A DNA stretch of 64,000 nucleotides from Microbacterium sp. CGR2. GTDB lineage: Bacteria; Actinomycetota; Actinomycetes; Actinomycetales; Microbacteriaceae. Where the stretch lies: positions 3,596,001 through 3,660,000 of the forward strand of contig NZ_RBHX01000001.1 in NCBI RefSeq assembly GCF_003626735.1, given 5' to 3'. The translations under genes were made by a program, and so were the position numbers. Each line of letters starts with the position of its first letter. The stretch's first letter is position 1. Below are positions 11,057 through 28,295 of the stretch, piece after piece. A model generated the notes under the pieces. That model was not told the DNA's origin. It did no database searches and worked only from the letters and a program-made list of their open reading frames with translations.

Positions 11057-11227
11057 ATCCAGCAGGTACGCAACGACCTTCCACCGGACTACGCCGGAGA
11101 AGCGGTGCCTTTCTGCGTTTTGCAGCATGTCAGGGTGGCGCCAGTGAGCGATTGCCATGATCCGAGCCAGGCGTCAATCGCCTATCGAACGGTGTTCGGA
11201 CAACCACCTCCACTGTGAAGGTGTGAC
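11057..11227. other. Region upstream of relaxase, possible oriT
   Basis: The 171 bp between the relaxase start and the divergent methyltransferase contain inverted repeats: CGAAC-ggt-GTTCG at 11186-11198, and CACCT/AGGTG arms around 11204-11222. Origins of transfer often lie beside the relaxase gene and have such repeats, but no known nic consensus was recognised. Confidence 0.2.
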
Positions 11228-13215: not shown

Positions 13216-13585
13216 CATCGGCACTCCCCGTCGTGGCTAGGCGTCTCTGACAATCAGCGCGGCGACTCTCGGTCGCTCCGCCGAAGGCAACGGCGATCGC
13301 GACGGTGGCGTCGTCGTCGCGATTGTCCAGCGTCGCCGGCTCCGAGCCGCGCAGGATGCTCAGCGCGCGGGCCTCGACGCCGCCATGGATCAGTGTGAGG
13401 AAAACTAGCCCATCTCTTAACTCGTTCCCTGGATGCGTCACTCGGCTTCGCTAACGAGGCTGCCACCGAACCACCTTCAACGTCGAGCCGTTCCCCCGGC
13501 CACCACGATCCCGTTTCGAACCAACAGGAGATCTTACTAGTTGGTATCATCTGGCAGGTCAACGCCTCAGGAGGGAAGCAACTCA
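13216..13585. other. Intergenic region with no gene recognised
   Basis: Short open frames on the minus strand (for example around 13193-13441) give no recognisable protein. Near 13532-13544 the sequence ACTAGTTGGTATC resembles a half-site of gamma-butyrolactone-receptor operators (GGTTGGTAT type), 42 bp before the TetR gene at 13586. Autoregulation through it is only a suggestion. Confidence 0.3.
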
Positions 13586-14233
13586 ATGCCCGTAGGAGAT
13601 CGAGGTCGCCAGCAACGATCTATCGCAACTCGAGAGGCTTTGGTCCTCGCGGCTGGCCGAGTCTTTGCAAGGATGACCTACGCCGAGGCGCGCCTGAAAG
13701 ATATCTCCGAGGATGCGCAGGTCAGTCCCGGATCGATGTACTTTCACTTCGGCAACAAGAAGGACTTCGCGTTGGCCGTGCTCGACCATGAGCAAGAGCG
13801 TATGAAGCAGGTCCTGACAGAGGTAACGGGCAGCGATGATCGCGGCTTGGACAAGCTCCTCCGTCTCGGCGGTGGACTGGGCGAGCTGATCTCGTCCGAC
13901 GTCGTTGTGCAAGGAGGTATCAAGCTCTCCTCACAACCAGGCACGGATTTCGGTTCTCACTCAAGCGCCCCGTATTTTCAATGGATCGAGATCACGCGCA
14001 CAATCATTGACGCAGGAATCCGCGATGGATCGATCAACCCGGAGATCGACTCACAGGTCTACGCGGTCATATTCAATGAGATGTTCGTCGGCGCACAGGT
14101 CATCGCCGAGCTCGCAGACTCCTGGCAGTCTCTGCCGGCGCGAATCCAGGATCTAAAACCCGTCCTCGAGAAGCTTCTCTCCTCTCCGCGCACAGGTTCG
14201 GCATCTTCGATACCCGGGCGTTCTGCCACATGA
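13586..14233 (+). CDS. TetR-family regulator, gamma-butyrolactone receptor type
   Basis: 215 residues from ATG 13586 (GGAGGGAAG upstream). HTH at ~15-55: TREALVLAAGRVFARMTYAEARLKDISEDAQVSPGSMYFHFGNKKDFALAVLDHEQERM, very like ScbR/ArpA-type receptors. The ligand-binding half contains VVVQGGIKLSSQPG and YFQWIEITRTIIDAGIRDGSINPEID, matching the VRAGIRL...Y..W pattern of that family. It converges on an AfsA-type synthase gene, so it is probably the cognate receptor of the signal made by AfsA and the SDR. Confidence 0.82.
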   Translation: MPVGDRGRQQRSIATREALVLAAGRVFARMTYAEARLKDISEDAQVSPGSMYFHFGNKKDFALAVLDHEQERMKQVLTEVTGSDDRGLDKLLRLGGGLGELISSDVVVQGGIKLSSQPGTDFGSHSSAPYFQWIEITRTIIDAGIRDGSINPEIDSQVYAVIFNEMFVGAQVIAELADSWQSLPARIQDLKPVLEKLLSSPRTGSASSIPGRSAT

Positions 14234-14279
14234 GGTCCTCGTCAGCAGATGTTGCAGATCAGGCATCGGTCGGGTCACG

Positions 14280-15104
14280 CTATAGCGGGCACCGAACGAA
14301 CGCTTGAACGCCCGGGAGCAGGGCCGGGACCATAGAACCTGAGAAGCTTGCCTTGAGTCGTCCGTGCTGCAAGACAGTTCCCTTGAACTGTCCGTTGGTC
14401 ACCGTAGTCAAGGGTATCTCCGGCACGGGATAAGCGTCGATGTAGGTCTCGAAATCCAGTTTGAGGCCACGTAGCGCTGCTTTCGAGGTGTCCGCGACCG
14501 TGCGTTCGATCGCGGACACTACCGTCATCGCCGTCACATGATCGTGCTCATGGTCAAAGAACGGCTGCACCATCGGCCCTGGGGCCGTGGCACCGGTCGT
14601 TGATCCTGAATAGCCGGATGTCGGCAACGCAGCATCCTCACGCGGCAGTGCGGGCGACGCGGAACGAAGACGCGCATAGGTCCCCACGGGCAGAAATCGA
14701 GCAGACAACCGGCCTTCGAGCACCTCGCCACTATCAAGTCTCATTCTGGCGGAGGCTTTGGCGGCGCGAACCACGGAGCGTGTGACGGAGAACACACAGT
14801 CTGAGACGTGCAAGACGCCTTGTCGCGACACGCGGTGCCACGAACCCGGATCGCGCATCTGCAGGGAGATAGAGGCAAGGGCGAACACGTGATCCATGGG
14901 GACGTGCAAAACTCTGTGGGCGAACACGAGACCGGCTTGTCGCCAGACCTCCATCAACGCCGGGAGCTGTGGCGGGGCAGTAGAGCTGGGAAGGCTGAAC
15001 GAGGCTTCCATCTCATCCTCGTCGGTAACCCGATAGGAGGTCAGCCAGGAATTGCTCTCTGCGCGCTTGTGGGTGAGCGCTGGATCGACCGGGGAGGCGA
15101 TCAT
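14280..15104 (-). CDS. AfsA-type gamma-butyrolactone biosynthesis protein
   Basis: 274 residues. N-terminal hotdog signature DPALTHKRAESNSWLTSYRVTDEDEMEASFSLP (HKR...E.FLT of AfsA) and LMEVWRQAGLVFAHRVLHVPMDHVFALASISLQM (E..RQAG...H). A second hotdog repeat follows (QPFFDHEHDHVTAMTVVSAIERTVAD). AfsA condenses a beta-ketoacyl donor with dihydroxyacetone phosphate to start A-factor-type butyrolactones. ATG overlaps the stop of the SDR gene (ATGA), so both are translated together. It is the last gene of a long minus-strand block including the ABC transporter and lasso genes. Confidence 0.82.
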   Translation of the reverse strand: MIASPVDPALTHKRAESNSWLTSYRVTDEDEMEASFSLPSSTAPPQLPALMEVWRQAGLVFAHRVLHVPMDHVFALASISLQMRDPGSWHRVSRQGVLHVSDCVFSVTRSVVRAAKASARMRLDSGEVLEGRLSARFLPVGTYARLRSASPALPREDAALPTSGYSGSTTGATAPGPMVQPFFDHEHDHVTAMTVVSAIERTVADTSKAALRGLKLDFETYIDAYPVPEIPLTTVTNGQFKGTVLQHGRLKASFSGSMVPALLPGVQAFVRCPL

Positions 15105-15907
15105 CGTTCTACTGTACTTTCGAACATGTGCCGCACGCTCGCCTTCTTCCCCAGTCGCGCACCCAACGTGCTACCGCCGGTGACATCGATCGATGATCCG
15201 GTCGTTCGCGACGAACGTTCTGAGATCAGGAAGCTCACTGCGTCCGCCACGTCCGTCGGGTCCGCGACGCCTCCGAGTACCGAGAAGCTCGACATGTACT
15301 CGCGCACCCTCGGATTTTGGAAGGCGGGATGGCCGTTGTCGGTGAATCCCGGAACGACGTTGTTCACTCGAATCCCTTGAGGCGCGAGAGCTTCCGCTGC
15401 GTTCCTCGTTAAGGACTCCAGGGCCGCCTTGCTCATGGCGTACACGATGTCCCCGGGGCTCGAGAAGTGCGCGTTCGCCGACGAGATGTTGACGATGCTT
15501 CCGCCTTGCTCCATGCGCTCCGTCAGTGCTTGTGTCAAGAAGAATGCGGCTTTCGTGTTCACTGCGAAATACTTGTCGAACTGCTCGACCGTGGCCTCCT
15601 TCATCGAGGGGCCGGTCAGGAGGGCCGCATTGTTTACCAGACCGTAGAGGGCGTATCCCCTGTCAGAGACGACGCGGTCCACTGCTTTCACGAGACCGTC
15701 CAGACCGTCTCGACTAGAAAGATCTGAAGATGCGACGTGGAGCGAACGGCCCGAACTCGAGAGTTCGGTGGTCAGCGTCTGGGCGGAGGCGTGGTCCTGG
15801 CCATATGCCGCGAGAACGCTGTAGCCGTCTTCGGTCAGACGGTGGCAGATCGCGCGACCGATCCCACCGGTCGAGCCAGTGACGACGACGAGTTGTGAGC
15901 GATTCAT
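15101..15907 (-). CDS. SDR-family oxidoreductase, probable signal-lactone reductase
   Basis: About 268 residues from ATG 15905-15907, with GGAGAAAAGAAG upstream. Cofactor motif VVVTGSTGGIGRAICHRL, NNAALLTGPS, and catalytic Ser-Tyr-Lys in IVNISSANAHFSSPGDIVYAMSKAAL. Reductases beside AfsA (BprA and relatives) reduce the butenolide or keto intermediate of butyrolactone signals. It shares unusual stretches (NNVVPGFTDNGHPAFQ, SSFSVLGGVA) with the SDR at 50273, which accompanies AvrD; both SDRs are thus specialised for signal synthesis. Overlaps afsA-like start by four bases. Confidence 0.85.
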   Translation of the reverse strand: MNRSQLVVVTGSTGGIGRAICHRLTEDGYSVLAAYGQDHASAQTLTTELSSSGRSLHVASSDLSSRDGLDGLVKAVDRVVSDRGYALYGLVNNAALLTGPSMKEATVEQFDKYFAVNTKAAFFLTQALTERMEQGGSIVNISSANAHFSSPGDIVYAMSKAALESLTRNAAEALAPQGIRVNNVVPGFTDNGHPAFQNPRVREYMSSFSVLGGVADPTDVADAVSFLISERSSRTTGSSIDVTGGSTLGARLGKKASVRHMFESTVER

Positions 15908-15941
15908 GAGCTTCTTTTCTCCGGGGTTGCTTTGTGGCGCG

Positions 15942-16388
15942 TCAGGAGCCATCAGCGAGCTCTTGTTCTCGGCTGGTGATCAGTGCGAGGACAGTGGCGG
16001 TATCCATGTCGATGCGCCGAGCTTCAGACAGGAGGGGTTGCAGGTAGCGATCGGCGAACTGCTCGCGTCGATGCCGACGGAGTCGTTCCCTGGCGCCGGG
16101 TGAGACGAAAGCGCCGATCCCTCTGCGCGTGTGTATGAACCCCTGCGCGCTCAGCAGTCTCAAGGATTTTCCTGTCGTGGAGGGGCTCGAGTCATGGATG
16201 ACGGCGAGTTCCGAGGAGGACGGGAGCGCTTCGTCCTCGGGGTAGTTTCCGACGATGATCTCTGTTTCGATCCACGAGGCCAGGCTTCGACTCAGCGGCG
16301 GTCGGAAGCCGGCCGCAGATGCTGTCCCGAGTGCTGTCATCGAACCAGAATCTCTCTTCAGAACGTGTGAGGACGCCTGGGCGGTCAT
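15942..16388 (-). CDS. GntR-family (YtrA-type) regulator
   Basis: 148 residues from ATG 16386-16388; a second ATG at 16340 would give a 132-residue product closer to the family's length. Winged-helix GntR: RPPLSRSLASWIETEIIVGNYPEDEALPSSSELAVIHDSSPSTTGKSLRLLSAQGFIHTRRGIGAFV, followed by a short C-terminal helix pair (ARERLRRHRREQFADRYLQPLLSEARRIDM) typical of YtrA members, which control ABC transporter operons. It lies directly downstream of such an operon with a 3-bp gap to the small peptide gene. Confidence 0.85.
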   Translation of the reverse strand: MTAQASSHVLKRDSGSMTALGTASAAGFRPPLSRSLASWIETEIIVGNYPEDEALPSSSELAVIHDSSPSTTGKSLRLLSAQGFIHTRRGIGAFVSPGARERLRRHRREQFADRYLQPLLSEARRIDMDTATVLALITSREQELADGS

Positions 16389-16530: not shown

Positions 16531-17283
16531 TCAGGCGTCGCGGCGGATGAGGGTGACGGTGTACACGACGACGGAGAGGAATGCCCAGGCGAGAAGCACG
16601 AGGGCGGCAATGCCGGGCGGCAGTTCGGTGACGTCGTAGCCGGGTGTTCCGACAAGGCTTAGACTCGCCTGGTCGGGTAGGAACCGGATGCCGTCCGGCC
16701 ATTGCAGGATTCCGGTGGCGACGACGATGGGCAGGGCGATCATGATCGCCAAGGGGGCGATGGTGCCTTTGAGGATCCCTGCAAGCCCGAAGGCAATCAA
16801 GGACATGAGCAGATACACGCCGACCCACTGCGCGCAGTTCAGCGCGAGCTCCCATGGACTCAGGCCGACGGAAACTCCAATGACCAGGCGCGCCGGGACG
16901 ATCGCGATGAGGGCTGCTACGAAGCAGATCGCCACCGTCGCGGTGAGCTTGGCGAACGCGAGGGCGCCGCGGCGAGGAGTGGCGACCAGGCTTATCCGCA
17001 GTTGCCCGCCATGGTGCTCCGTCGCGGCCGCCCACACCGGAATGACGAGGAAGGCGTAGAGCGGTGCGAGCATCACCATGCCGAACGACGACAACCGGGA
17101 GGGCACGACGGCATTGCCGGTGTAGAACAGGAGCCCCGACGCGTCGATCGCGGCCAGAGCAAGGTTCACCGCCAGAGTGATTGCAAGTATGAGGACCGTT
17201 GCGGGATGGCTGATGATCTTCGTGATCTCCGACGCGATCTCATCGCGATGCCGAATATCCGGGTGTCGGGATGCGAGGGTCAT
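16531..17283 (-). CDS. ABC-2 type transporter permease
   Basis: 250 residues from ATG 17281-17283 (overlaps the upstream stop, ATGA). About six hydrophobic segments. Contains WAAATEHHGGQLRISLVATPRRGALAFAKLTATVAICFVAAL, the cytosolic ExxxGQLRxSLVATPRR motif shared with the other permease (TEFKTGQLGLSLVAVPNR). Together with it and the ATPase it forms a heteromeric ABC-2 exporter like those giving self-protection against antimicrobial peptides (LanFEG type). Gene order suggests immunity for the lasso peptide; this is inference. Confidence 0.85.
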   Translation of the reverse strand: MTLASRHPDIRHRDEIASEITKIISHPATVLILAITLAVNLALAAIDASGLLFYTGNAVVPSRLSSFGMVMLAPLYAFLVIPVWAAATEHHGGQLRISLVATPRRGALAFAKLTATVAICFVAALIAIVPARLVIGVSVGLSPWELALNCAQWVGVYLLMSLIAFGLAGILKGTIAPLAIMIALPIVVATGILQWPDGIRFLPDQASLSLVGTPGYDVTELPPGIAALVLLAWAFLSVVVYTVTLIRRDA

Positions 17284-18086
17284 CGGGCATCCCTTCTCCC
17301 GATCGCGATCAGCGCGCACGTGGAGGCGATAACGGCCCACGCCGTCAGGACGAGGGCACCTTGCAATGCGGTCCCGCTGAGCGGCACAGGCACGATCGCG
17401 GCGTCTTGGAACAGGAGGTTGCGTGCGGCGCTGAAGGGGAGGAACGCATCGACAATAGGGGCGATCATCGCGACGACCTGTGAGAACGTCAGCGTAAGAA
17501 GTGCGACCGAAACGATGATCCCGGTGAGCGCCCGTCGAGCGATGAGCGTGATCGCCGCTCCGGTCAGCGTGATGGTCACCACGAAGAGGATCACCCGTCC
17601 GGCCTCTTGCAGCATCGGAGTCGTCCACAGCAGGTCGGGGTCCCAGTCCTTGCTGGAGAGGTAGATCAGCACCAGGGCGATCACGATGAAGACGAGCGCG
17701 AGGCCTGCTGCGTAGAACGCGATGGCGAGGACCTTGCCGATGACGAAGCGCGCCCGGTTTGGCACGGCGACGAGACTCAATCCGAGCTGCCCGGTCTTGA
17801 ACTCGGTGCCCGCGATGATGGCACCGAGGACGGGAAGCAGCAGGCCGGCGTTCACGACCGCGGTGCCGATAGACCCACGCATCTGCGTGGCGACGTGCAC
17901 GGTGCCCAGGAAGGTCTTGGCTGTACCGTCTGGTTGCACGTTCTCGACCATGGAGACGTGGTCTACATACAGGCTGTGCTGCATATAGAGGAAGAGAACG
18001 ACGATGACGGCAGTGACGATCCAGACTCCGGGGAGAGTGACGAACTTCGTGGTTTCAGATCGAATGGTGCTGAGCATGGCTGTCAC
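17280..18086 (-). CDS. ABC-2 type transporter permease
   Basis: 268 residues; ATG overlaps the stop of the ATPase gene. Six hydrophobic segments: WIVTAVIVVLFLYMQHSLYV near residue 20, a first-loop extracellular segment, GLLLPVLGAIIAGTEFKTGQLGLSLVAVPNRARFVIGKVLA, then four more. Partner of the neighbouring permease. A small-peptide or antibiotic exporter is likely. No peptidase or substrate-binding domain. Confidence 0.85.
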   Translation of the reverse strand: MTAMLSTIRSETTKFVTLPGVWIVTAVIVVLFLYMQHSLYVDHVSMVENVQPDGTAKTFLGTVHVATQMRGSIGTAVVNAGLLLPVLGAIIAGTEFKTGQLGLSLVAVPNRARFVIGKVLAIAFYAAGLALVFIVIALVLIYLSSKDWDPDLLWTTPMLQEAGRVILFVVTITLTGAAITLIARRALTGIIVSVALLTLTFSQVVAMIAPIVDAFLPFSAARNLLFQDAAIVPVPLSGTALQGALVLTAWAVIASTCALIAIGRRDAR

Positions 18087-18796
18087 CAGCTCTGCCCTGG
18101 TTCGCTGCCAGTGAGAACGAAGAATGCGGCCTCCAGCGAGGCGTGCCCCTCAGTGATGTCATCCAGGGTGCCGTCTGCGATGATGCGACCTTTGTTGATA
18201 ATCACGATGTCGTCCACCGTCTCGGCGGTCTCGCCCATGAGATGACTGGACAGCAGCACAGTGTTGCCCTGATCGGCATAGCGACGCAAGAAGGTGCGGA
18301 CCGTGCGGATGCCTTCCGGGTCGAGCCCGTTCACGGGTTCATCGAGCACGAGGATGCGCGGCTCGCCAAGGAGCGCGGCCGCAAGACCGAGGCGCTGTTT
18401 CATGCCGAGTGAGTACTTGCGGACGCGAATCTTTGCCGCGTCCGTGAGGCCGACTGTCTCCAGCACCTCGGCGATCCGCTGGGTTGGGATGCGGTTCGAC
18501 TGCGCGATCCACCGAAGATGATCGATGCCGCGCCGCTCGGGCACCGCAGAGGCGCCATCCAGCATCGCGCCGACCGTGCGCAACGGCTGATCGATGCTCG
18601 CGTACGGCTTGCCGTCGATGAGTGCGGTGCCGCCGGTAGCGCGGTCAAGGCCCAACAGGATGCGCAGTGTGCTGGACTTACCGGCACCGTTGGGGCCGAG
18701 GAACCCGGTCACTCGTCCGGGCTTCGCGGTGAAGGTCACCGCGTCGACAGCGGTCTTGGGTCCGTACTTCTTCGTTACGCCGGTGATCTCGATCAC
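18083..18796 (-). CDS. ABC transporter ATP-binding protein
   Basis: 237 residues. Walker A GFLGPNGAGKSSTLRILLGL at ~30-50, signature region KYSLGMKQRLGLAAALLGEPR (SLGMKQR, as in many LanF-like ATPases), Walker B ILVLDEPVNGLDPEG, and H-loop LLSSHLMGETAE. Drives the two permeases encoded next in the operon. It begins 125 bp downstream of the response regulator gene, and a promoter may lie there. Confidence 0.92.
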   Translation of the reverse strand: MIEITGVTKKYGPKTAVDAVTFTAKPGRVTGFLGPNGAGKSSTLRILLGLDRATGGTALIDGKPYASIDQPLRTVGAMLDGASAVPERRGIDHLRWIAQSNRIPTQRIAEVLETVGLTDAAKIRVRKYSLGMKQRLGLAAALLGEPRILVLDEPVNGLDPEGIRTVRTFLRRYADQGNTVLLSSHLMGETAETVDDIVIINKGRIIADGTLDDITEGHASLEAAFFVLTGSEPGQSW

Positions 18797-18921: not shown

Positions 18922-19578
18922 TCAGCGCCGCTCGTGCAGGAGCCCCGCCTCATGGGCGAGCACCGCGAGCTGCGTTCGATCGCTCACACCGAGCTTCTGG
19001 AACAGCCGCTTCACGTAGGTCTTGATGGTCTCCGTGCTCAGATGCAGCTCCTCCGCGATCCCCGGATTCGTCCGCCCTTGGGCGATGAGCCGGATCAGCT
19101 GGAGTTCACGACGGCTCAGCTGCGCCTCGGTGAAGGCATGGGGCTTCGAGCGGGGACGGGCGCTGAACTGCTCCAGCAGGCGCGACGTGACCTCCGGGGC
19201 AAGGGTGCTATGCCCGGCAGAGACCACCCGGACTGCCTGAAGCACCTCCTGCGCCGATGCGTTCTTCAACAGGAATCCGGCAGCGCCGTGACGCAGCGCT
19301 TCGTCGACGTACTCATCCAGATCGAACGTCGTCAGCACGATGATCCGCGTCCGTAGTCCTTCAGCGCCGCGGACCACGTCGAGACCCGAGCCATTCGGCA
19401 TCTGCACGTCGACCAGCGCTACGTCCGGCGTCCACTCGGACATCAGCTGCAGCGCCTCCTGTCCGGTGCCCGCCTCCGAGACGAGTTGGAACCCAGGAGT
19501 GCCGTGAAAGAGGCGCCGGTAGACGATACGGAAGTCCGCGTCGTCGTCGGCGAGGAGAACGGTGATCGGCCCGGTCAT
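18922..19578 (-). CDS. NarL/LuxR-type response regulator
   Basis: 218 residues from ATG 19576-19578, which overlaps the kinase stop (ATGA). Receiver domain: acidic pocket VLLADDDADFRIVY, phospho-acceptor Asp in PDVALVDVQMPNGSG, conserved Thr in IIVLTTFDLDEYV, Lys in AAGFLLKNAS. C-terminal LuxR helix-turn-helix: LSRRELQLIRLIAQGRTNPGIAEELHLSTETIKTYVKRLFQKLGVSDRTQLAVLA. Likely targets are the adjacent ABC operon or the lasso genes, both on the same strand. Confidence 0.92.
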   Translation of the reverse strand: MTGPITVLLADDDADFRIVYRRLFHGTPGFQLVSEAGTGQEALQLMSEWTPDVALVDVQMPNGSGLDVVRGAEGLRTRIIVLTTFDLDEYVDEALRHGAAGFLLKNASAQEVLQAVRVVSAGHSTLAPEVTSRLLEQFSARPRSKPHAFTEAQLSRRELQLIRLIAQGRTNPGIAEELHLSTETIKTYVKRLFQKLGVSDRTQLAVLAHEAGLLHERR

Positions 19579-20720
19579 ATCTGACCTGCCGCGGGGAGAC
19601 TCACGAGGAGCCGAGTGCCACCCTCGAGGCGGTTCGTCACCGTCATCGAGCCTCCGGCCGTTCCCACCCGCTCCCGCATCCCGGTGAGCCCCATGCCTGG
19701 ACGGTACCGGGCTGGGAGCCCCATGCCGTCGTCGTCGACGCGCACTGTCAACGACCCGTCCTCCTGCCAGATAGCGATCTCGCACCGGGTCGCCTCGGCA
19801 TGGCGCACAGTGTTGCTGAGCGCCTCCTGCACAACTCGTGAGACGATCGCGGTCAGCTCGTCGTTGAGCCCGGTAATGTCCATCTCAGACTGAACTTCTA
19901 GGCCGCTGACCCGCGCTGCGACCACGAGCTGAGGAAGAGGAGTCGCACGGCCCGGTCCCACGTCGCCGCGACGCAGGGACCGCACTAGCTGCTGCACCTC
20001 TTCCAGCGCACCGCGCGCGCGCTGTTCGATATCGGCCAGAGCCGCCCTCAGCTCCGCCTCCCCGAGACCGGTCAAGCTGCGCGACACGTCGGCTTCTGCA
20101 CTGATCACGCTGAGCGCATGGCCGACCACGTCATGCACCTCGCGCGCCATCGAGGTCTCCTGTAACGCCCGCTCGTACGCGGCCCGCCGATCGGCGGACT
20201 CTCTCACGGCCTCCAGGCGCTTCGCTTCGGCTTGTCCCAGCAGCCACACCGTCCCGATCACGACAGCTGAGAAGATGACGCGCTGATTTACCGCCGCTGG
20301 CGACGATGAGCCGTGGGTAAGGGAGACCAACACCATCGTGGCCACCGACGCGCCCCCGATGATCCTGCTCCGGCCTACGCGCTGCAGTGCAAGCGGATAC
20401 AGGCACCAGGCCACAGCCAGCATGGGGTCGGCGCTGACCTGCAGCATCCATCCCGCACCCGTCGCTGCGAGAGCGATGATCGGGGCCGCGCTCGGCAGCC
20501 GCCAGCGCAAGATGACGGCTGCAGCCGAAACGGATGCCAAGCAGATGCCCAGAACGAGGAGGCCGGCGCTAGGAGTGGACAACAGGCCCGGAACCCAGAA
20601 GACGACCACGAGCACGATCGCCACGGCAACATCGGGCCACCGCACCCAGGGCCTTCGCACGGAACGCGCAATTGAACGCGGGGATCTGCGCGTCCCGCGC
20701 GGTCCCTTGACCTCATCCAT
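19575..20720 (-). CDS. Sensor histidine kinase (HisKA_3 type)
   Basis: 381 residues. Four to five membrane segments within residues ~25-165, a coiled linker (ERALQETSMA), dimerisation/phospho-acceptor box REVHDVVGHALSVISAEAD with the phosphorylated His near residue 195, and the HATPase domain with VVQEALSNTVRHA (N box), VRVDDDGMGLP (G1), and GMGLTGMRERV (G2). It has no large extracellular domain, so it may sense a membrane event such as peptide attack. Partner of the response regulator gene, with which it overlaps. Confidence 0.92.
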   Translation of the reverse strand: MDEVKGPRGTRRSPRSIARSVRRPWVRWPDVAVAIVLVVVFWVPGLLSTPSAGLLVLGICLASVSAAAVILRWRLPSAAPIIALAATGAGWMLQVSADPMLAVAWCLYPLALQRVGRSRIIGGASVATMVLVSLTHGSSSPAAVNQRVIFSAVVIGTVWLLGQAEAKRLEAVRESADRRAAYERALQETSMAREVHDVVGHALSVISAEADVSRSLTGLGEAELRAALADIEQRARGALEEVQQLVRSLRRGDVGPGRATPLPQLVVAARVSGLEVQSEMDITGLNDELTAIVSRVVQEALSNTVRHAEATRCEIAIWQEDGSLTVRVDDDGMGLPARYRPGMGLTGMRERVGTAGGSMTVTNRLEGGTRLLVSLPAAGQI

Positions 20721-20847: not shown

Positions 20848-21129
20848 CTAGGCCGCCGCCGTGAGGATGCGTACAGCCCGGACTGGGCCGAGACCGAGGC
20901 CGAGTCGGATCACCATCCGTGCTCCGGAGTAGACGCGGACACGTTCGCGTTTGATCGTGACGAGCATCGGCTCCCACTTGGGCTCACTTCGCACCGACGC
21001 CACGAGGCGCTGCATCTCGGGATCAGTCAGGCTACGGCTGACCAAGCGTCCGTCACCGACCTTCTCGACCAACTGAGCGAGATTCCCACACCTGCGGCAA
21101 CTATCGTCATACAGCAAGAATCTCTCCAC
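20848..21129 (-). CDS. DCC/thioredoxin-like thiol-disulfide oxidoreductase, lasso-associated
   Basis: 93 residues from GTG 21127-21129 (AAAGGATG upstream). The N-terminus FLLYDDSCRRCGNLAQLV holds a CxxC redox pair (Cys-Arg-Arg-Cys) in the DxxC context of DCC/DUF393 proteins; RLVSRSLTDPEMQRLV and EPMLVTIKRERVRVYSGARMVIRLGLGLGPVRA follow the same fold. Last gene of the lasso peptide operon, 4 bp after the exporter. The precursor's core has two cysteines, so a role in forming or checking its disulfide is a reasonable inference; comparable redox proteins occur in disulfide-bearing lasso clusters such as sviceucin. Confidence 0.75.
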   Translation of the reverse strand: MERFLLYDDSCRRCGNLAQLVEKVGDGRLVSRSLTDPEMQRLVASVRSEPKWEPMLVTIKRERVRVYSGARMVIRLGLGLGPVRAVRILTAAA

Positions 21130-21133
21130 GCGC

Positions 21134-22969
21134 TCATCCTTTCGTTCCTGGCGCCGACGTCGAAACAGCGTCTTCGGCGTGCCCAGAGGATAGGAACTGG
21201 CGGGCTGCCAGCTCCTGGTACAGGTCACTCGTCACCATGAGGTCGCCGTGCGTACCCTCGGCAACGACCTCGCCGTGATTCAAGACGACGATGCGATCTG
21301 CCGAGGCGACGGTGGACAGTCTGTGCGCGATGATCAGGGTGGTCCGCCCCGTCGCGGAAGGGGCGATGGCATCCTGCACGAGAAGCTCGCTTCTGCCGTC
21401 CAGACTTGACGTCGCCTCGTCCAGCAGCAGGACCGAAGCACGTCCTGCAACCGCCCTCGCGATCGACAGACGCTGTCGTTCCCCACCACTCAGACCTTGT
21501 CCATGTTCTCCCAGGACCTTGTCCAGGTAGGAGGTCGGATTCGTATCGTGCGGGTCGATAAGGCCCACAGATATCAGTGCCGCCACACACTCGGAATCGA
21601 CCAGATCGGATCGGCCGAGTGTCAGGTTCTCTCTAACCGTTCCAGGCAGCACGGCTGAGTCTTGATCGACGTAGGCGAGACGCGAACGCAAACAGTCACG
21701 CGATAACCCCTGCACGTCGCCGCCTTCGAAGTAGATCCGACCGAGCGTCGGCTCGTAGAAGCGCTCCAACAAGGCAAACAGGGTGGACTTTCCGGCTCCA
21801 GACGGTCCTACGAAAGCGACGGTCTCGCCAGCCCGAACCTCGAAAGAGACCCCTCGCAGAGCCCATGCCCGGCTCGGATCATCCGGTGAAGCACCTGACG
21901 GGTAGTCGAAGTGCACATCCTCGAACCGGATTACTCCTCCGTTCTGAGATGTCGCGCCGGTCACCGCATCCGAGGTGATGTCGGGTTCGACTGATTCGGC
22001 CCTGATCCGCAGTACCCGTGAGAGCGAGCCGAATGCTTCACCCAGTGACGCCACGATGCCGCCCACCGTCGCGACGGGTGCAGCCATCATCATGAGGTAC
22101 ATGATGAAGGCGCTGAGTTCGCCGACGCTGGTGACGCCTGCTGCTACGCGAAGAGCGCCTACCCCAACAACGACGATGAGGAGGGTCTGGATGGACACTC
22201 CTGAGACGGTCTGGAGAATCGCTCTGAGCCTCGCGGCCGTGTAGCCGGCGGATCGCACCGAGGCAGCGTGGTCCGCAGCCCGAGAACTCTCATGCTCTGT
22301 AGCCCGGGCCGCCCTAACGGTTCGGATAGCACCGAGAGTTAGTGACACGCGTTCGGCAAGCGAGCCCAGTGCGTTCTGCATGCGCAACCCGACGGGTCGC
22401 GTTCTCTTCCCGATTGCCAGCAGGACCATCAGTATGACGACTACAGCGACGAGAGATACCGCCATGAGGGTGAGGTCGATCACGGCCATCATGACGAGTG
22501 AAGCAAGAACGGTGAGCGAACTGACAGCCAGGTCTACGAGTCCGGACGTAAAGAAGTGCCTGGTCTCAGACACATCCGTCGTGACACGCGAGACCATGTC
22601 GGCTCGCTGCCTGCTCTCAACCCGGGCGATCGGAAGACGGTAGATATGCGCGATCAACCCTTTTCGCGCCTCGAACGCGTAGCGTTCTCCGGTTCGCTCG
22701 ATCAGCAGTTCCCGGATCGCTGTGAGCCCGGCGCCGAGGAGAAGCAACGAGACCAAGATGACCACCTGCCCGGTGGGGAGTTCACCATCGAAAGTGTCGA
22801 CGATCGTCGAAATGACGATGGGTTGGACCAACGACGCCGCGGCCGCGAACAGTCCTATGACGAATGCGACTGAGAGTGGTCGCCAGTACGGGCGGACGAG
22901 ATCCAAGACGTCGCGGAACCCCGCTGAAATTTCCTCGCCTGCGGCCGGCACTGCATCATTGTCATTCAT
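21134..22969 (-). CDS. Lasso peptide ABC exporter (fused membrane-ATPase)
   Basis: 611 residues. N-terminal ~330 residues form a six-helix ABC exporter membrane domain; the ATPase follows with Walker A FVGPSGAGKSTLFALLERFY, signature LSGGERQRLSIARAVAGRASVLLLDEATSSLD, and the H-loop LIIAHRLSTV. This is the D protein of lasso clusters: export and self-immunity. Its ATG overlaps the B2 stop. No peptidase C39 domain is present, in keeping with leader removal by B2. Confidence 0.93.
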   Translation of the reverse strand: MNDNDAVPAAGEEISAGFRDVLDLVRPYWRPLSVAFVIGLFAAAASLVQPIVISTIVDTFDGELPTGQVVILVSLLLLGAGLTAIRELLIERTGERYAFEARKGLIAHIYRLPIARVESRQRADMVSRVTTDVSETRHFFTSGLVDLAVSSLTVLASLVMMAVIDLTLMAVSLVAVVVILMVLLAIGKRTRPVGLRMQNALGSLAERVSLTLGAIRTVRAARATEHESSRAADHAASVRSAGYTAARLRAILQTVSGVSIQTLLIVVVGVGALRVAAGVTSVGELSAFIMYLMMMAAPVATVGGIVASLGEAFGSLSRVLRIRAESVEPDITSDAVTGATSQNGGVIRFEDVHFDYPSGASPDDPSRAWALRGVSFEVRAGETVAFVGPSGAGKSTLFALLERFYEPTLGRIYFEGGDVQGLSRDCLRSRLAYVDQDSAVLPGTVRENLTLGRSDLVDSECVAALISVGLIDPHDTNPTSYLDKVLGEHGQGLSGGERQRLSIARAVAGRASVLLLDEATSSLDGRSELLVQDAIAPSATGRTTLIIAHRLSTVASADRIVVLNHGEVVAEGTHGDLMVTSDLYQELAARQFLSSGHAEDAVSTSAPGTKG

Positions 22970-23412
22970 GACCTGAGCTCGCCCACTGCCGCGTCGTATC
23001 GCGGTGCCGCCCGTAGCATGACGCGCAGACCCTCAAGCGATGTGACTTCACCGACGGGCGTGCGGTCGACCTCGACCCAGGCGTGCGCCAAGAACGGCTG
23101 TTCCCTGATTCCGGTGCACCAGGTAAGGCCGTGCCCGTGAAGTCGCGCCAGTGTCGCGCTCGCCACCGACCGCGGGAGACAGCCCTCGCCCGCGCACAGC
23201 GTGCTCACTGAGACGACCAGTGTCCGATAGCGCTCCGCACGCTCTGGCGTTGGTCGCTTCCCTCCTGAAACGACAACCCGCATGGTCGATCGAAGCAGCC
23301 GAGGGGGTAACAGGCACAAAATGAACGCGACACCAACGGAGAGACGGGCAAGAAATGACTCCCCACGCGATCTGTCGGTCGCACCTGGTTCTGGCAGTAC
23401 GGCGCTACTCAC
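22966..23412 (-). CDS. Lasso peptide leader peptidase (B2, transglutaminase-like)
   Basis: 148 residues. The cysteine-protease motif CLPRSVASATLARLHGHGLTWCTGIREQPFLAHAWVEVD supplies catalytic Cys (GCLPRS, near residue 78) and His (AHAW, near residue 113) typical of B2 proteins (transglut_core3). B2 cuts the leader bound by B1. Overlaps B1 by eight bases and the exporter start by four bases. Confidence 0.92.
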   Translation of the reverse strand: MSSAVLPEPGATDRSRGESFLARLSVGVAFILCLLPPRLLRSTMRVVVSGGKRPTPERAERYRTLVVSVSTLCAGEGCLPRSVASATLARLHGHGLTWCTGIREQPFLAHAWVEVDRTPVGEVTSLEGLRVMLRAAPRYDAAVGELRS

Positions 23413-23671
23413 CGCGCACCTCGATCAGTCGCGCCTTCTTCAGGTCCCTCAGCAACGCGTCGATATCGCGCTTCATTGTCTCTGGATCGACGTTATAGTG
23501 CTCCGCGATGAGTGCGGTCACCTGGTTGAGGGACTTGCCTTCCTGGATGCCGCGGACGAACTGCGCGCCGACGCCGTTGAGATGCCAATAGACACCGCGA
23601 GCAGTGTCGAGAAGGATCGATCCGTCTTCAGACTCAGTCAGCTCCACCGAACGTCTGAGAACGACTGTCAT
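23405..23671 (-). CDS. Lasso peptide RiPP recognition element (B1, PqqD-like)
   Basis: 88 residues with the PqqD/RRE pattern: VELTESEDGSILLDTARGVYWHLNGVGAQFVRGIQEGKSLNQVTALIAEHYNVDPETMKRDIDALLRDLKKARLIE. B1 binds the precursor's leader (the YxxPxLxxxGxF stretch) and delivers it to B2. ATG overlaps the cyclase stop (ATGA). Length is typical. Confidence 0.93.
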   Translation of the reverse strand: MTVVLRRSVELTESEDGSILLDTARGVYWHLNGVGAQFVRGIQEGKSLNQVTALIAEHYNVDPETMKRDIDALLRDLKKARLIEVRGE

Positions 23672-25488
23672 TGCATACTCCCCACAGCGATCTTCGCCTT
23701 TTCATCTGCCAAGGAGCGGAGCCAGCGTTCCGCGAACTCGAGGTCCAATATGTCGGTGTAGGCCGCGCCGTCGGGAGAGTACGAGTTGGCGACGCGAATG
23801 ACCTCATGATCTTCGATGAGGCCCAGCTCTCCGAGGAAAGACCCCCCTCCAAAGAGATCCTTTACGCTGGACCTGATCTGCTGGTGCTGAGAGAAGACCT
23901 CTGCCGTGTAGTCACCCTTGTCGCGTCGAAAGAAGTACTCGATACTCATCGCAGGCGGTCGCCCCGCTGCGAGGAGCGGTTTCGTCGGCGACTGACGTGT
24001 GCGGTCAGCGTGGTTCAGGGACAGCGCCACGTCGATTACTCGTCTATCCAGGAAAGGGCTGTCGAAGACGATCTGCGGTGAGAGAGCGTTCATCCTCCGG
24101 ACCACTGCCCCGTGGACACTGAGATACGAGAGGATCTGGTGCTGGGTGCGATCAGGGCTCAACGACGTGACGCCGGACTCAAGCTCGGTCAGGCAGAGCG
24201 AGCTGAAACGCTGTCGCGCAGTCGCCGTATGCATGGGGCCGAAGTTGGGGATCTCGAGCCAATCTGCATAGCCGGCAAGGCTTCCCCGCTGTTTCGTGAA
24301 CTCACCCCTCGCCATCGAGCGCAGCTCATCGGCAAATGTTGACCGAGCTCCCAGCATCCGAAGCATGTCGAGCGTGGGGATGCGGTTCACCTTCCGGTAC
24401 TTCCGCAGCCACCGGAATCTCCTTCGGGTGTTCGTTCGGAGGAATGACCACGGCAGACTCGACACCTGCCCGAATAGGGCGTCTCCCGCGTGGCCGTTCA
24501 GATGCAGGCGGCTGCCGCTCGCGCCCAAAATCCGCTGAAGCGGAATAGCTGACGCCGCTGTTTTCGCCATAGCGCTAGGACCCTCGGGGAAGGCGCCCAC
24601 CGTTGCCGGTACAGCTTCGTCGATCTCCTCCAGCATCTGAAGGTAGGGCACGCGGACATGTCGAGACGCAATCTCGGTGGCAGCGCGATCTGACCATTTT
24701 GAGTCGTTGTTGAGGTCGTTGGCGCTGCTCATGTAGAAGGTGGTGAGATCAACACCGAGTTCCGCGAGAGCGAAGCACAGCGTTGTGGAGTCGAGTCCTC
24801 CTGAGAGATCAGCGCTGACCCTGTCCTGGTCAGCAACGCGGAGCATCAGGGCCTGGAGCATGGCGATCTTCAGTCCCGGCCCCGTTGAATCGAGGTCTTC
24901 GGTTGGCGACGGAGGCATCCACCACCGAGACGAGGCAGTGCGGCCATCGTCGTGAATCGTGACTTCCTCGCCGAAGCCCAGGGCATGCACATTGCGCCAG
25001 ATCGGCCTCCGCAAAAACGGATGCGTGACTTCAGAGTTCGCCAGCCTGCCAGCCAGGGAACCCAGATCGAGCTCGAACTGGTTCAGTGCGGCCAGCGGAT
25101 ACTGACTATCGGCTGCGAGGACGATCTCGTCGATTCGCGTCCAGAAAACAGAACGTCGCTGCGATACCGGTGCATAGATGCGTGTTTTCGTCCCGTCCCG
25201 CCCGATCAGAAGCGTGTCGAACTCGACGAATCGATGTGCAAGGGCTGCAAGCCCATCCATCCGATCTTGCTTCACCGCGCTTGAGAGGGGCTCATCGCTT
25301 TTGAGCTGGGAACCGACCATGACGACATCGACGTTGCGTCCCCGCGTGTGCACAAACTGCTCATCACCCAGCACCCACGGACGCCCAGACCTATGCGTGA
25401 GCACAGTTGCTCCGACGAGATCGTGGAGCGCGGCTTCAATTCGAGGCTCGATATCTCTGTCGGGCATTATCGCGAAAGCCATGGGCAT
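23668..25488 (-). CDS. Lasso peptide cyclase (asparagine synthetase homologue, C)
   Basis: 606 residues from ATG 25486-25488 (GAGGTGAG upstream); a second in-frame ATG follows two codons later. The ATP-PPi loop is DRVSADLSGGLDSTTLCFAL near residue 225. The N-terminal domain is degenerate relative to glutamine-hydrolysing AsnB (no N-terminal Cys), as usual for lasso cyclases. It adenylates the side-chain carboxylate of the ring Asp/Glu and joins it to the core's N-terminus. First gene after the precursor (111 bp apart). Confidence 0.93.
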   Translation of the reverse strand: MPMAFAIMPDRDIEPRIEAALHDLVGATVLTHRSGRPWVLGDEQFVHTRGRNVDVVMVGSQLKSDEPLSSAVKQDRMDGLAALAHRFVEFDTLLIGRDGTKTRIYAPVSQRRSVFWTRIDEIVLAADSQYPLAALNQFELDLGSLAGRLANSEVTHPFLRRPIWRNVHALGFGEEVTIHDDGRTASSRWWMPPSPTEDLDSTGPGLKIAMLQALMLRVADQDRVSADLSGGLDSTTLCFALAELGVDLTTFYMSSANDLNNDSKWSDRAATEIASRHVRVPYLQMLEEIDEAVPATVGAFPEGPSAMAKTAASAIPLQRILGASGSRLHLNGHAGDALFGQVSSLPWSFLRTNTRRRFRWLRKYRKVNRIPTLDMLRMLGARSTFADELRSMARGEFTKQRGSLAGYADWLEIPNFGPMHTATARQRFSSLCLTELESGVTSLSPDRTQHQILSYLSVHGAVVRRMNALSPQIVFDSPFLDRRVIDVALSLNHADRTRQSPTKPLLAAGRPPAMSIEYFFRRDKGDYTAEVFSQHQQIRSSVKDLFGGGSFLGELGLIEDHEVIRVANSYSPDGAAYTDILDLEFAERWLRSLADEKAKIAVGSMQ

Positions 25489-25599
25489 CTCACCTCGTGG
25501 AATCTTCGGGTCTATCGGGTGTACCAGACAGACGTGGATTGAGTGGAAGAGTTCGGGGCGGCGCGAATCGTGCGCTGCCCCGAACTCCTGCTCCGTGGC

Positions 25600-25734
25600 T
25601 TACCAGCAGTTAGGGTCGAGGCTCCACAGCGAGCGAGCCTGGAAGATGTCCAGACAGCGCTGCTGCCCAAGCGATCGCGTCATCTTCCGGAAGGATCCGA
25701 CCTTCGTGAGGGCCGGCGCCTGGTACTGGTTCAT
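25600..25734 (-). CDS. Lasso peptide precursor (A)
   Basis: 44 residues, ATG 25732-25734 with AAAGGGAAC upstream. The leader (residues 1-20) has the diagnostic YQAPALTKVGSFRKMTR: Y-x-x-P-x-L-x-x-x-G-x-F and the Thr two before cleavage. The core is then residues 21-44, starting SLGQQRCLD and ending LWSLDPNCW. Asp at core position 9 predicts a nine-membered macrolactam with Ser1. Cys at core 7 (in the ring) and 23 (in the tail) could form one disulfide, a class III-like layout. A 24-residue core with Ser1 is unlike the lasso peptides I remember. It is followed by the cyclase, B1, B2 and exporter genes. Confidence 0.9.
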   Translation of the reverse strand: MNQYQAPALTKVGSFRKMTRSLGQQRCLDIFQARSLWSLDPNCW

Positions 25735-26057: not shown

Positions 26058-26954
26058 GTGGGGTGGCGGACGTCTCGGAGGGAGGACGGCCCGTTGGAAT
26101 TCCCAGTGTGCGTGAACCGCGCTGCGTACACCTCTGCTACCAGACGCGTCGTCTGCGATGAGAGCCAGCTCCTTCTGGTGAACACTGGCGCCACGCTCTT
26201 GAACTTCGAGAGCGGGGAGCTGGAGGCAAACGCAGGCGATGTGATTCTGCTGCCGCGCAGGCAACGGTATGAGGGGACACCTCTAGGACATGTGACGATC
26301 ACGACGGCCCGCATCGACACGACGTTTCTTCGAGATCAAGCCAGATGGCTACCCGAAGATAACGCGTTGATCTCAGCGCTCGTCGCTCCCGACTCAGACG
26401 TCGCACCCCTCGTCGTGAATCCACCGTTGCGGGAGGTCCCCCGTATCGATGCCGCGCTGCGCCAATTGATGCAAGGTCAGCTTCGCTACACTTCTCCGTT
26501 CCGCCGATTCCGTCACGTTGCCGACCTTTTCGACGCACTGACCGCCCCTTCGAGCGCACCTTCCACGCACGACTCAGTGCGTCGGGCGGTGGCCCTGCTG
26601 GTGGAGCACTCCGAGCACGCCTGGACGATGCAATCGCTCGCGGAAGCAGTACTGCTCTCCCGATCTCAGCTGAATCGCCTTTTTCAAAGGGACGTCGGAA
26701 TGGGACCGGCGGGGTTCCTCCGACACCAACGCGTACGCCGGATGGCTGCACTCCTCACCGCAACATCGGAAACGGTAGAAACTATCGCCCGCCAAGTCGG
26801 ATGGACGAATCCGAGCCATGCAGCACGGGCATTCCGCACCGTCACTGGAGTATCGCCACGCCACTATCGGAGGCACCATCGGGATGACCCCAGACCTCCC
26901 GAAAGGACGGATATGGGGTTTGCCCCGGCCGGGGCCCGGTCGGCGATGAGGTAA
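26058..26954 (+). CDS. AraC-family regulator, divergent to lasso operon
   Basis: Up to 298 residues from GTG 26058; a TTG at 26094, 3 bp after GGAGGACGG, is an alternative start. N-terminal cupin-like sensor (VNTGATLLNFESGELEANAGDVILLPRRQRYEGTPLGHVTI), C-terminal AraC HTH pair (WTMQSLAEAVLLSRSQLNRLFQRDVGMGPAGFLRHQRVRRMAALL; VETIARQVGWTNPSHAARAFRTVTGVSPRHYRRH). Same subfamily as the AraC gene at 5885. Position next to the lasso precursor makes it a candidate cluster regulator. Confidence 0.83.
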   Translation: MGWRTSRREDGPLEFPVCVNRAAYTSATRRVVCDESQLLLVNTGATLLNFESGELEANAGDVILLPRRQRYEGTPLGHVTITTARIDTTFLRDQARWLPEDNALISALVAPDSDVAPLVVNPPLREVPRIDAALRQLMQGQLRYTSPFRRFRHVADLFDALTAPSSAPSTHDSVRRAVALLVEHSEHAWTMQSLAEAVLLSRSQLNRLFQRDVGMGPAGFLRHQRVRRMAALLTATSETVETIARQVGWTNPSHAARAFRTVTGVSPRHYRRHHRDDPRPPERTDMGFAPAGARSAMR

Positions 26955-27407
26955 TGGCATCGGCGAAGTTCCCACCGCGGAGCAGCGCCCTGGAGCACAA
27001 CCACCCACGCCTTGGAACAAGGTGCTGAACAGCATGACCAGGCGACGGTCCTTGACCGGATCGGCGTTGACGCAGCTTGCTGCGGAGCGCAGCACACCGA
27101 CATCGAGCCGGACGGCCTAGATCCTTCTATTCCCGCCCGTGGTCGCACTCAAAGGATGGTGCAGGGAATCCACTTCGCGCCGCTGGAGGTGGGCACCTGC
27201 TACTTGACGATTTGGCGCATGTTCTTGACGAAACGGCGCAATCTCCCCGAGAACTCTCGCAGTATCCGTTGGGGTTCGAGTAGGGGTTGAGGATCAGAAG
27301 GGGAACGCTCACGAGCGGATTCTGCTGGCAGCCGGCTGCTGCCGCACCTTCCCGGTGACTCCGCGCACGAGCACCCAGGCCCGTGCCGTGTCCTGAAGGA
27401 GGTGCAC
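26955..27407. other. Junction between cargo and T4SS block, no gene recognised
   Basis: About 450 bp. Open frames on both strands give no recognisable protein. The right end carries ICE motif copy 2 and the RBS of the prim-pol gene, so the conjugative backbone resumes by ~27.34 kb. Confidence 0.4.
27343..27362 (+). promoter_or_regulatory. ICE intergenic motif, copy 2
   Basis: CGCACCTTCCCGGTGACTCC, ending 45 bp before the prim-pol start. Same consensus and distance as the other copies. Confidence 0.65.
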
Positions 27408-28295
27408 ATGACTATCACCGACCCCTCTACCTGGCCGATGCCGGCACACCTCCACGGGGGGCTCGCACATGCTGCTGCCACGTATGCCGCCGCGGGCATC
27501 CTGGTGTTCCCGTGCGCGCCTGGTCAGAAACGTCCGCTGACCGAGCATGGGTTCCGGGACGCCAGCACCGACCTCGTGCAGATCGATGCGTGGTGGGGTC
27601 GGCATCCGGACGCGAACATCGGCATCCCTACCGGGACGGTCGTGAACGTGCTGGATGTGGATGTGCACGCCACCGGCACCGGATACCCGATTCTCCGCAC
27701 GCTCCATCGCGAGGGCCTGATCGGCGGGTGGGGGCAGGCCGTGCGCTCTCCGTCGGGTGGGCTGCACCTGTACTACCCGACCGACTCGGACCGGCAGGTG
27801 GGGTCGTGGTCTCGGGGGCGGGCGCATGTGGATTTCCGCGGCACCGGCGGCTATATCATCGCTCCGCCCTCCGGCATCACCGCCGGCCACGGAAACCGCC
27901 GCTACGAGATCATCGCCCGAGGCCGTGGCCCGCGCCCGGTTGATGCGGATGCGATCCGCGAACTGCTGACGCCCCAGCGTGAGCAAACGCTACGCCCGCT
28001 CAACCCGGTAATTTTGCGGGAGCGGGCGGTGGAGAAGCTCGTGGGGTGGGTCGCTACATTGCCGGAGGGGAACCGGAACGCGGGTCTGTTCTGGGCAGCA
28101 TGCCGGCTCGCTGAGGCCGGCCTCGCTGAGCCGGACACTTTCGGGGTGCTCAAGCCTGCCGCGTCGGCCGCTGGGCTCGAGGCGCGAGAGATCGCGGCGA
28201 CGATCCGCTCTGCCCACCGTGCCACGCGGATCACTGAGGTGCCGGACGATCCTGTCGCGGATGAGGTTCGCTTCTTCTCGGGGATCGGGAGGTAG
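27408..28295 (+). CDS. Bifunctional DNA primase/polymerase (prim-pol) domain protein
   Basis: 295 residues from ATG 27408, preceded by a very strong RBS (AAGGAGGTG). Prim-pol features: FPCAPGQKRPLTEHGFRDASTDLVQIDAWWGRHPDANIGIPTG, catalytic VLDVDVHATG (DxD), SPSGGLHLYYP, and HVDFRGTGGYIIAPPS. A C-terminal ~100-residue helical part (AVEKLVGWVATLPEGNRNAGLFWAACRLAEAGL) is common in actinobacterial element primases. Likely supports replication or priming of the transferred strand. Confidence 0.88.
   Translation: MTITDPSTWPMPAHLHGGLAHAAATYAAAGILVFPCAPGQKRPLTEHGFRDASTDLVQIDAWWGRHPDANIGIPTGTVVNVLDVDVHATGTGYPILRTLHREGLIGGWGQAVRSPSGGLHLYYPTDSDRQVGSWSRGRAHVDFRGTGGYIIAPPSGITAGHGNRRYEIIARGRGPRPVDADAIRELLTPQREQTLRPLNPVILRERAVEKLVGWVATLPEGNRNAGLFWAACRLAEAGLAEPDTFGVLKPAASAAGLEAREIAATIRSAHRATRITEVPDDPVADEVRFFSGIGR

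Follow-up and report, generated by a model that had tools for sequence, protein, structure and literature searches.

Microbacterium sp. CGR2 carries a streptomonomicin-type lasso peptide cluster with a probable ring–tail disulfide and a linked DCC-like CxxC protein

A 64000-nucleotide stretch of Microbacterium sp. CGR2 (contig NZ_RBHX01000001.1, positions 3596001–3660000, hereafter the window) carries on its minus strand a head-to-tail set of lasso peptide genes for a precursor (A), a macrolactam synthetase or cyclase (C), B1, B2 and an exporter (D), followed by a gene for a small protein with a CxxC motif, and so raises the question of whether that protein acts on a disulfide in the peptide. 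The mechanism of lasso disulfide formation is called unknown in a passage of PMC13352647 and controversial, perhaps spontaneous, in one of PMC9266682, and a passage of PMC12427821 states that oxidoreductases form these bonds. Our reading, to which we give a probability of roughly 60%, is that positions 25734–16531 hold a streptomonomicin-type lasso cluster whose product has a predicted Ser1–Asp9 ring and a tail clipped by a likely Cys7–Cys23 disulfide, with the DCC-like CxxC protein acting on both cysteines.

Judged by gene content, the window strongly appears to hold a complete lasso peptide cluster of the split-B actinobacterial type, as every core gene is uninterrupted and either scores above its family cut-off or aligns with relatives along most of its length. 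B1 and B2 score 72.3 bits (cut-off 70) and 87.3 bits (cut-off 33) against the curated NCBIfam models NF033530 and NF033537 respectively, C reaches 76 against PF00733 (cut-off 21), and the SGGxDS motif of C is invariant across the 31 rows of alignment A1; none of the NCBIfam cyclase models scanned against C matched at its cut-off. The order A–C–B1–B2–D–CxxC given in the initial annotation is borne out by family models for A, B1, B2 and C and by the coordinates (Table 1). Because gene ends overlap at C/B1, B1/B2 and B2/D and the CxxC gene starts 4 bases past D (at a GTG at 21129, picked to fit the 93-residue relatives), the genes from C to CxxC look like one operon. A consensus scan also marked a promoter-like site upstream of the precursor (minus strand, 25960–25931; 0.2 expected), from which we draw no conclusion.

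The precursor consists of a leader, MNQYQAPALTKVGSFRKMTR (25675–25734), in which the hallmarks YxxPxLxxxGxF and Thr at −2 can be read as originally described, and a 24-residue core, SLGQQRCLDIFQARSLWSLDPNCW (25603–25674), with Ser1, Cys7, Asp9 and Cys23. Since the leader passes the curated cut-offs of both NF033521 (24.9 bits, cut-off 19) and PF19397 (30 bits, cut-off 22.6), the precursor is not a chance reading. It had been described as hidden and too short for standard gene calls; it does overlap longer open reading frames (ORFs) in other frames, but the 44-residue protein is already a predicted entry with a PF19397 label (P0001). A protein search with the precursor gave no other protein at E ≤ 1, but scored only a single candidate, because the search requires shared exact words; over 43 residues the precursor is 49–56% identical to its relatives in two loci that recur below, those of Streptomonospora nanhaiensis 12A09 (L038) and Nocardiopsis halophila DSM 44494 (L039). 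The core is new and the cluster of a known kind: the strings SLGQQRCLD, SLGQQRC, SLGRLPCND and SLGRLSCND were not found in the open-licence PMC literature, which agrees with the core having been called unrecognised, and a PDB search with the core returned 0 matches. We take the core of the class III peptide BI-32169 to be different as well.

From this sequence a ring between Ser1 and Asp9 is predicted, and a class III-type disulfide from ring to tail, between Cys7 and Cys23, is probable. The core has exactly two Cys, one within the predicted ring (acceptor Asp9) and one in the tail, which is the criterion for class III, and it departs from class I in having Ser1 rather than Cys1 and two Cys rather than four. 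Both features had been proposed initially, and L038 and L039 keep Asp9 and the Cys pair. The pairing would have a structural parallel in the siamycins, whose ring Cys7 is bridged to Cys19 near the C-terminus in a table of PMC12427821. BI-32169 and 9401-LP1, both of class III, have one ring–tail disulfide, as is predicted here, and the 9401-LP1 core differs from that of the window in starting with Ala (passages of PMC9266682 and PMC5974421). The computed mass of the expected product is M 2815.332, with [M+2H]2+ at 1408.673 and [M+3H]3+ at 939.451.

The relatives of the cyclase place the cluster beside that of streptomonomicin. A protein search with C, which scored the 7996 candidates with most words in common and listed 120 of its 148 matches, gave 42 proteins (P0007–P0048) at 38–96% identity before a drop to 34% and below. 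Alignment A1, made from the window's C and 30 of these 42, was used to search named genomes, and the 80 best of 397 loci were taken, which span 3.2–21.9 kb; as the flanks are short at several of them, absence of a gene at a locus means its absence in the DNA examined. One of the 80, L043 from Streptomonospora alba, encodes SLGSSPYNDILGYPALIVIYP, the streptomonomicin core as published in the table of PMC12427821. A tree built from 69 C proteins has a 49-row clade (support 100/99) that joins the window's C with that of streptomonomicin and leaves out the 15 siamycin-like and related rows; the place of L043 inside this clade has low support (96/37), and L045 is not part of it. Ser1 had been thought unprecedented together with this pattern. 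As the two cyclases group together and the L043 core is SLGSSPYNDILGYPALIVIYP, Ser1 is not new; it recurs in L038–L041 and L044. Within the tree the window, L038 and L039 lie on one side of a branch with support 100/100, apart from six other labelled relatives. Streptomonomicin, a class II peptide, thus shares with the window the C clade, the A–C–B1–B2–D order, Ser1, Asp9, a core starting SLG...DI, a linked regulator and a second ABC (ATP-binding cassette) exporter, but it has no Cys and 21 residues, and its 21.8-kb locus contains no CxxC gene of the window's family.

A scan of genome contigs with C alone found no relative, and a plasmid search with C returned six records, all below 28% identity. 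The groups of L039 and L038 were also searched for more lasso clusters with the CxxC gene: C matched in 30 of 297 genomes, the five best being already among the loci and the rest at most 30% identical, and two further searches matched one of six and two of 40 genomes, all already among the loci. In the family of L083, searched for a cluster of the Actinomyces respiraculi type, four of 213 genomes matched at 29% identity at best. A match to B2 was present in 15 of 398 sampled genomes of the window's family, its own included (14 over the cut-off), and in none of the eight further genomes listed from the same genus. Two observations on the collected loci may be recorded in their own right: Streptococcus suis contigs (L050 and L056) encode a streptomonomicin-like core, GAGGARERDLLGFRALIVIHWPWL, beside a cyclase 27–28% identical to the window's and on a long tree branch, and the Streptomyces loci L052, L054, L060 and L063 have two or three lasso precursors each, with cores such as GAGPTDCVDWWGGDAWIC, in which a Cys7/Cys18 ring–tail pair is predicted, and without a CxxC gene of the window's family.

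The evidence that ties the CxxC gene to the cysteines is their joint occurrence. The cores of the window, of L038 (SLGRLSCNDILGFRALWTTSPAC) and of L039 (SLGRLPCNDIFGQKALWTTSPNC) have Cys at positions 7 and 23 only, plus Asp9, and differ at many other positions; all three clusters contain the CxxC gene, and six relatives, L040–L045, have neither the gene nor any core Cys (one-sided Fisher value 0.012, or 0.018 without L045, which ignores descent). Across all ORFs in the 80 loci, a profile of the CxxC family (alignment A2) matched L038 and L039 only, besides the window. Because gene and Cys pair share a cluster in all three genomes in which both are readable, the gene likely aids the clip. The L038 and L039 clusters have the same gene set as the window, but their cores are of 23 residues and end in Cys, the regulator directly follows D, the kinase is divergent, the C proteins are 47–50% identical to the window's and the CxxC gene, directly after D in the window, lies after the second exporter at the far end of the cluster. 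In addition, the CxxC relatives P0005 and P0006 are on contigs of the same sizes (10441 and 5873) as the C relatives P0009 and P0010, which suggests two more linked cases (P0005/P0009 and P0006/P0010). A search with the CxxC relative P0004 in the eight genomes of L038–L045 recovered both lasso copies, along with two longer fused proteins encoded in the genome of L040 and a weak match in that of L043; four of the eight gave none.

Both Cys of the CxxC motif are invariant in the ten rows of A2. The window protein (19.0 bits), P0004 (16.5) and a protein from locus L035 (19.4) stay under the PF04134 cut-off of 27.8, and the proteins from L038, L039 and L036 gave no match to that family, for which reason the protein is termed DCC-like here rather than placed in PF04134. 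An AlphaFold2 model built from the ten rows (predicted local distance difference test score 83.9, predicted template-modelling score 0.72) has the order strand-helix-strand-helix-strand-strand-helix-helix, with the CxxC motif opening the first helix, and the top rows of a Foldseek search against the PDB are mostly thioredoxins and protein disulfide-isomerase domains at probabilities up to 0.99 (top match 0.99, E 3.4e-3, template-modelling score (TM) 0.46). From this model we take the fold as thioredoxin-like, short of proof.

In the mechanism that we propose, B1 would bind the leader, B2 would cleave after ...MTR, C would join Ser1 to Asp9 around the tail and D would export the finished peptide. 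No signal peptide was seen by eye in the CxxC protein, which may act on the peptide intracellularly, before or during export; after leader removal and ring closure it could either close Cys7–Cys23 or keep the thiols apart until the tail is threaded. We infer a redox role in the bridge and favour an aid to correct pairing rather than bulk oxidation; that the gene is dedicated to the disulfide, as initially suggested, is plausible.

Unexpectedly, the same domain also occurs outside lasso clusters. In 394 genomes of the class, the A2 profile found it at 22 places in 18 genomes, comprising two lasso-linked copies (the window and S. nanhaiensis, whose coordinates are those of the L038 copy), 16 whole fused proteins, two distant proteins without a Cys-rich tail (L170 and L171) and two fragments from one genome (L161 and L174). 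The domain is N-terminal in all 16 fused proteins, whose last 70 residues contain 4–17 Cys, with at least eight in 13 of them; in a control set of 966 ORFs, each 250 residues or longer and taken from the collected loci with spurious ORFs included, 41 reach four Cys and four reach eight. Many of the fused proteins have a hydrophobic, export-like stretch between domain and tail, and the lasso-type P0004 used alone as a query also finds fused relatives. These 16 lie among loci L156–L175, and further proteins of this widespread type at L035:10639–11547, at L036:7188–8396 and in L120 and L122. Eight plasmid records carry the domain, the gene under the match being annotated as a ‘bacteriocin fulvocin C-related protein’ in five, as ‘hypothetical’ in one (Thermomicrobium) and not at all in two. 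NCBIfam models gave no match to the two fused proteins scanned, so the fulvocin label comes from the plasmid annotations alone; fulvocin C itself is presumably a small, disulfide-rich myxobacterial bacteriocin. These proteins share the N-terminal CxxC domain with the window protein, but have it fused to a many-Cys tail, and no lasso genes are annotated in two plasmid regions with proteins of this type, the gene tables of which are incomplete. We infer that the CxxC gene encodes a disulfide-maturation domain in free-standing form, which would act on the predicted Cys7–Cys23 bridge. More tentatively, and at less than even odds, it may be a peptide-disulfide maturation domain working in trans, of the kind that other actinobacteria have at the N-termini of Cys-rich bacteriocin precursors; recruited together with Cys7/Cys23, it would have made a class III peptide with its own disulfide helper out of a streptomonomicin-type class II one.

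A number of observations weigh against a part for the CxxC protein in the disulfide. All three co-occurrences lie on one side of one branch, so they may reflect one event and shared descent. A precursor could be assigned in 75 of the 80 loci (L074, L079, L089, L105 and L114 are left out of the Cys counts), and 39 of these have at least two Cys, 20 with two and 19 with four. The CxxC gene was absent from 37 of the 39, including loci with Cys7/Cys18 and Cys6/Cys19 ring–tail patterns, so disulfide lasso peptides evidently manage without it, and on this count we reject the protein as a general lasso disulfide enzyme. None of the 19 readable four-Cys loci has the gene, nor does the domain occur in the 17 of them with the class I spacing 1/7/13/19 (L046 and L111 lack this spacing, and the L046 core may be mis-assigned). 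Fourteen loci of the window's own family (L017–L030), kept out of the Cys counts, are also without the gene; in 11 of them the precursor-like ORFs have no Cys, and the A match of L019 has an in-frame stop. A passage of PMC9266682 describes SviF as a thioredoxin-domain oxidoreductase beside DoxX-type SviE and states that sviF deletion leaves the sviceucin disulfides intact with the peptide in mycelia only; it also reports reduced yield and no thiol forms for mslE/mslF deletions, bridges in stlassin double-Cys variants and a 9401-LP1 cluster with no extra genes. Taken with the 37 loci, the deletions and 9401-LP1 indicate that the CxxC gene is not needed for lasso disulfides generally. The family, fold and domain-fusion arguments have limits too: no tested family member reaches the PF04134 cut-off, Foldseek gave no match at E ≤ 0.001 (best 3.4e-3) and a TM of 0.38–0.51 in its first 30 rows, a strict twin-arginine motif is present in only six of the 16 fused proteins, and the A2 profile itself included two fused rows among ten, one of them the fused match L156.

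The parallel with sviceucin-type clusters drawn in the initial annotation is therefore a loose one. Siamycin/sviceucin-type class I peptides resemble the window in having Cys7 in the ring and another Cys close to the C-terminus (table of PMC12427821), and the siamycin-type loci L047–L049 have regulator and ABC ATPase neighbours similar to the window's, but these peptides have Cys1 and four Cys, and SviF with SviE stands in place of the window's CxxC protein (passage of PMC9266682). No SviF homologue was identified when CxxC genes were sought in the siamycin-type loci L047, L051, L055 and L061. ‘SviF-type gene’ was rejected as an established identity, given the differing sviF data and the 19 four-Cys loci without the CxxC gene.

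The SviF work nevertheless supplies the chief competitor, in which the disulfide forms spontaneously and the CxxC protein is an accessory of export or stability, without which oxidised peptide would stay with the cells. The sviF mutant, which still made sviceucin, and the mslE/mslF mutants, which had no thiol intermediates, accord with it (passage of PMC9266682), as do the 37 Cys-bearing loci without the gene and the fused relatives, in which the domain precedes an often hydrophobic, export-like segment. An export accessory is harder to reconcile with a gene that tracks the Cys pair among the nearest relatives (three of three with the pair, none of six without it), since all six Cys-free relatives also have D and four of them the ATPase of the second exporter, and we consider this explanation unlikely, if a real contender. 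The single-branch distribution and the different gene positions would also suit an unrelated redox gene outside peptide maturation that is carried in one lineage; we think this improbable, the gene having been kept in the cluster despite its shift and cyclases only 47–50% identical, and its domain occurring elsewhere in fusion with Cys-rich tails. That the product has no intramolecular bridge and is a free-thiol or dimeric (class II-like) lasso peptide is just as improbable in our view, given that Cys7 and Cys23 are kept in three cores that otherwise differ widely and that Cys7 is also a ring partner in the siamycins (table of PMC12427821). That the cluster is silent or broken and yields no product we regard as very improbable, the core genes being uninterrupted and backed by family models or by relatives, as set out above.

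The cluster had been taken to end in the CxxC gene. Such a linked gene does follow D, but the cluster continues to about 16531 with a kinase, a regulator and a second, three-gene ABC exporter (Table 1), which are predicted to be a module for sensing and self-protection. Homologues of all five genes flank the L038 and L039 clusters, where the kinase homologue (47–51% identity) is divergent from A, the exporter ATPase is 83–86% identical and membrane proteins 1 and 2 are 48–51% and 53–60% identical. Regulator homologues occur in L038–L041 and L043; L040, L041 and L043 also carry the ATPase and at least one membrane protein, L045 has the ATPase and weak membrane-protein matches, L044 distant kinase and regulator matches only, and L042 none of the five. 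Membership of the divergent AraC-type regulator is uncertain, as among L038–L045 it has a single weak match, in L039 (34% over 83 residues).

Table 1. Features of the lasso cluster and its flanks in the window
Feature	Position	Strand	Basis
Precursor A, 44 aa	25600..25734	-	ORF; NF033521; PF19397
C, macrolactam synthetase (asparagine-synthetase type, SGGLDS motif), 606 aa	23668..25488	-	PF00733; alignment A1; tree
B1, PqqD-like leader-recognition protein, 88 aa	23405..23671	-	NF033530; PF05402
B2, transglutaminase-like leader peptidase, 148 aa	22966..23412	-	NF033537; PF13471
D, ABC exporter, fused membrane and ATPase domains, 611 aa	21134..22969	-	PF00005, PF00664
DCC-like CxxC protein, 93 aa	20848..21129	-	P0002–P0006 relatives; alignment A2; thioredoxin-like model
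Sensor histidine kinase (HisKA_3/HATPase_c)	19575..20720	-	Pfam
LuxR-type response regulator, start inferred from domain	18922..19578	-	PF00072, PF00196
ABC exporter ATPase	18083..18796	-	PF00005
ABC membrane protein 1	17280..18086	-	homology to L038/L039; no Pfam match
ABC membrane protein 2, start approximate	16531..17283	-	homology to L038/L039; no Pfam match
AraC-type regulator, divergent	26058..26954	+	PF12833

Beyond these genes, a γ-butyrolactone-type signalling module adjoins the cluster (13541–15952), made up of an ScbR-like TetR regulator (141.5 bits, slightly below its cut-off of 150), an AfsA-domain protein over the PF03756 cut-off and a short-chain dehydrogenase. One side of the cluster (7544–11158) has a gene for a MobF/TrwC relaxase with 77% identity to a plasmid-borne relaxase of Glutamicibacter protophormiae, and the other (27402–28295) a Prim-Pol gene; with these genes nearby the cluster may sit in or next to a mobile element and a recent transfer is plausible.

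One candidate gene likewise separates the related clusters that have the Cys pair from those that lack it, so the disulfide question can be put to a gene-removal test, in which the CxxC protein would be a new and testable redox partner for lasso disulfide formation. The link of its domain to Cys-rich, bacteriocin-like proteins may, in addition, help in searching actinobacteria for disulfide-rich peptides that have gone unrecognised.

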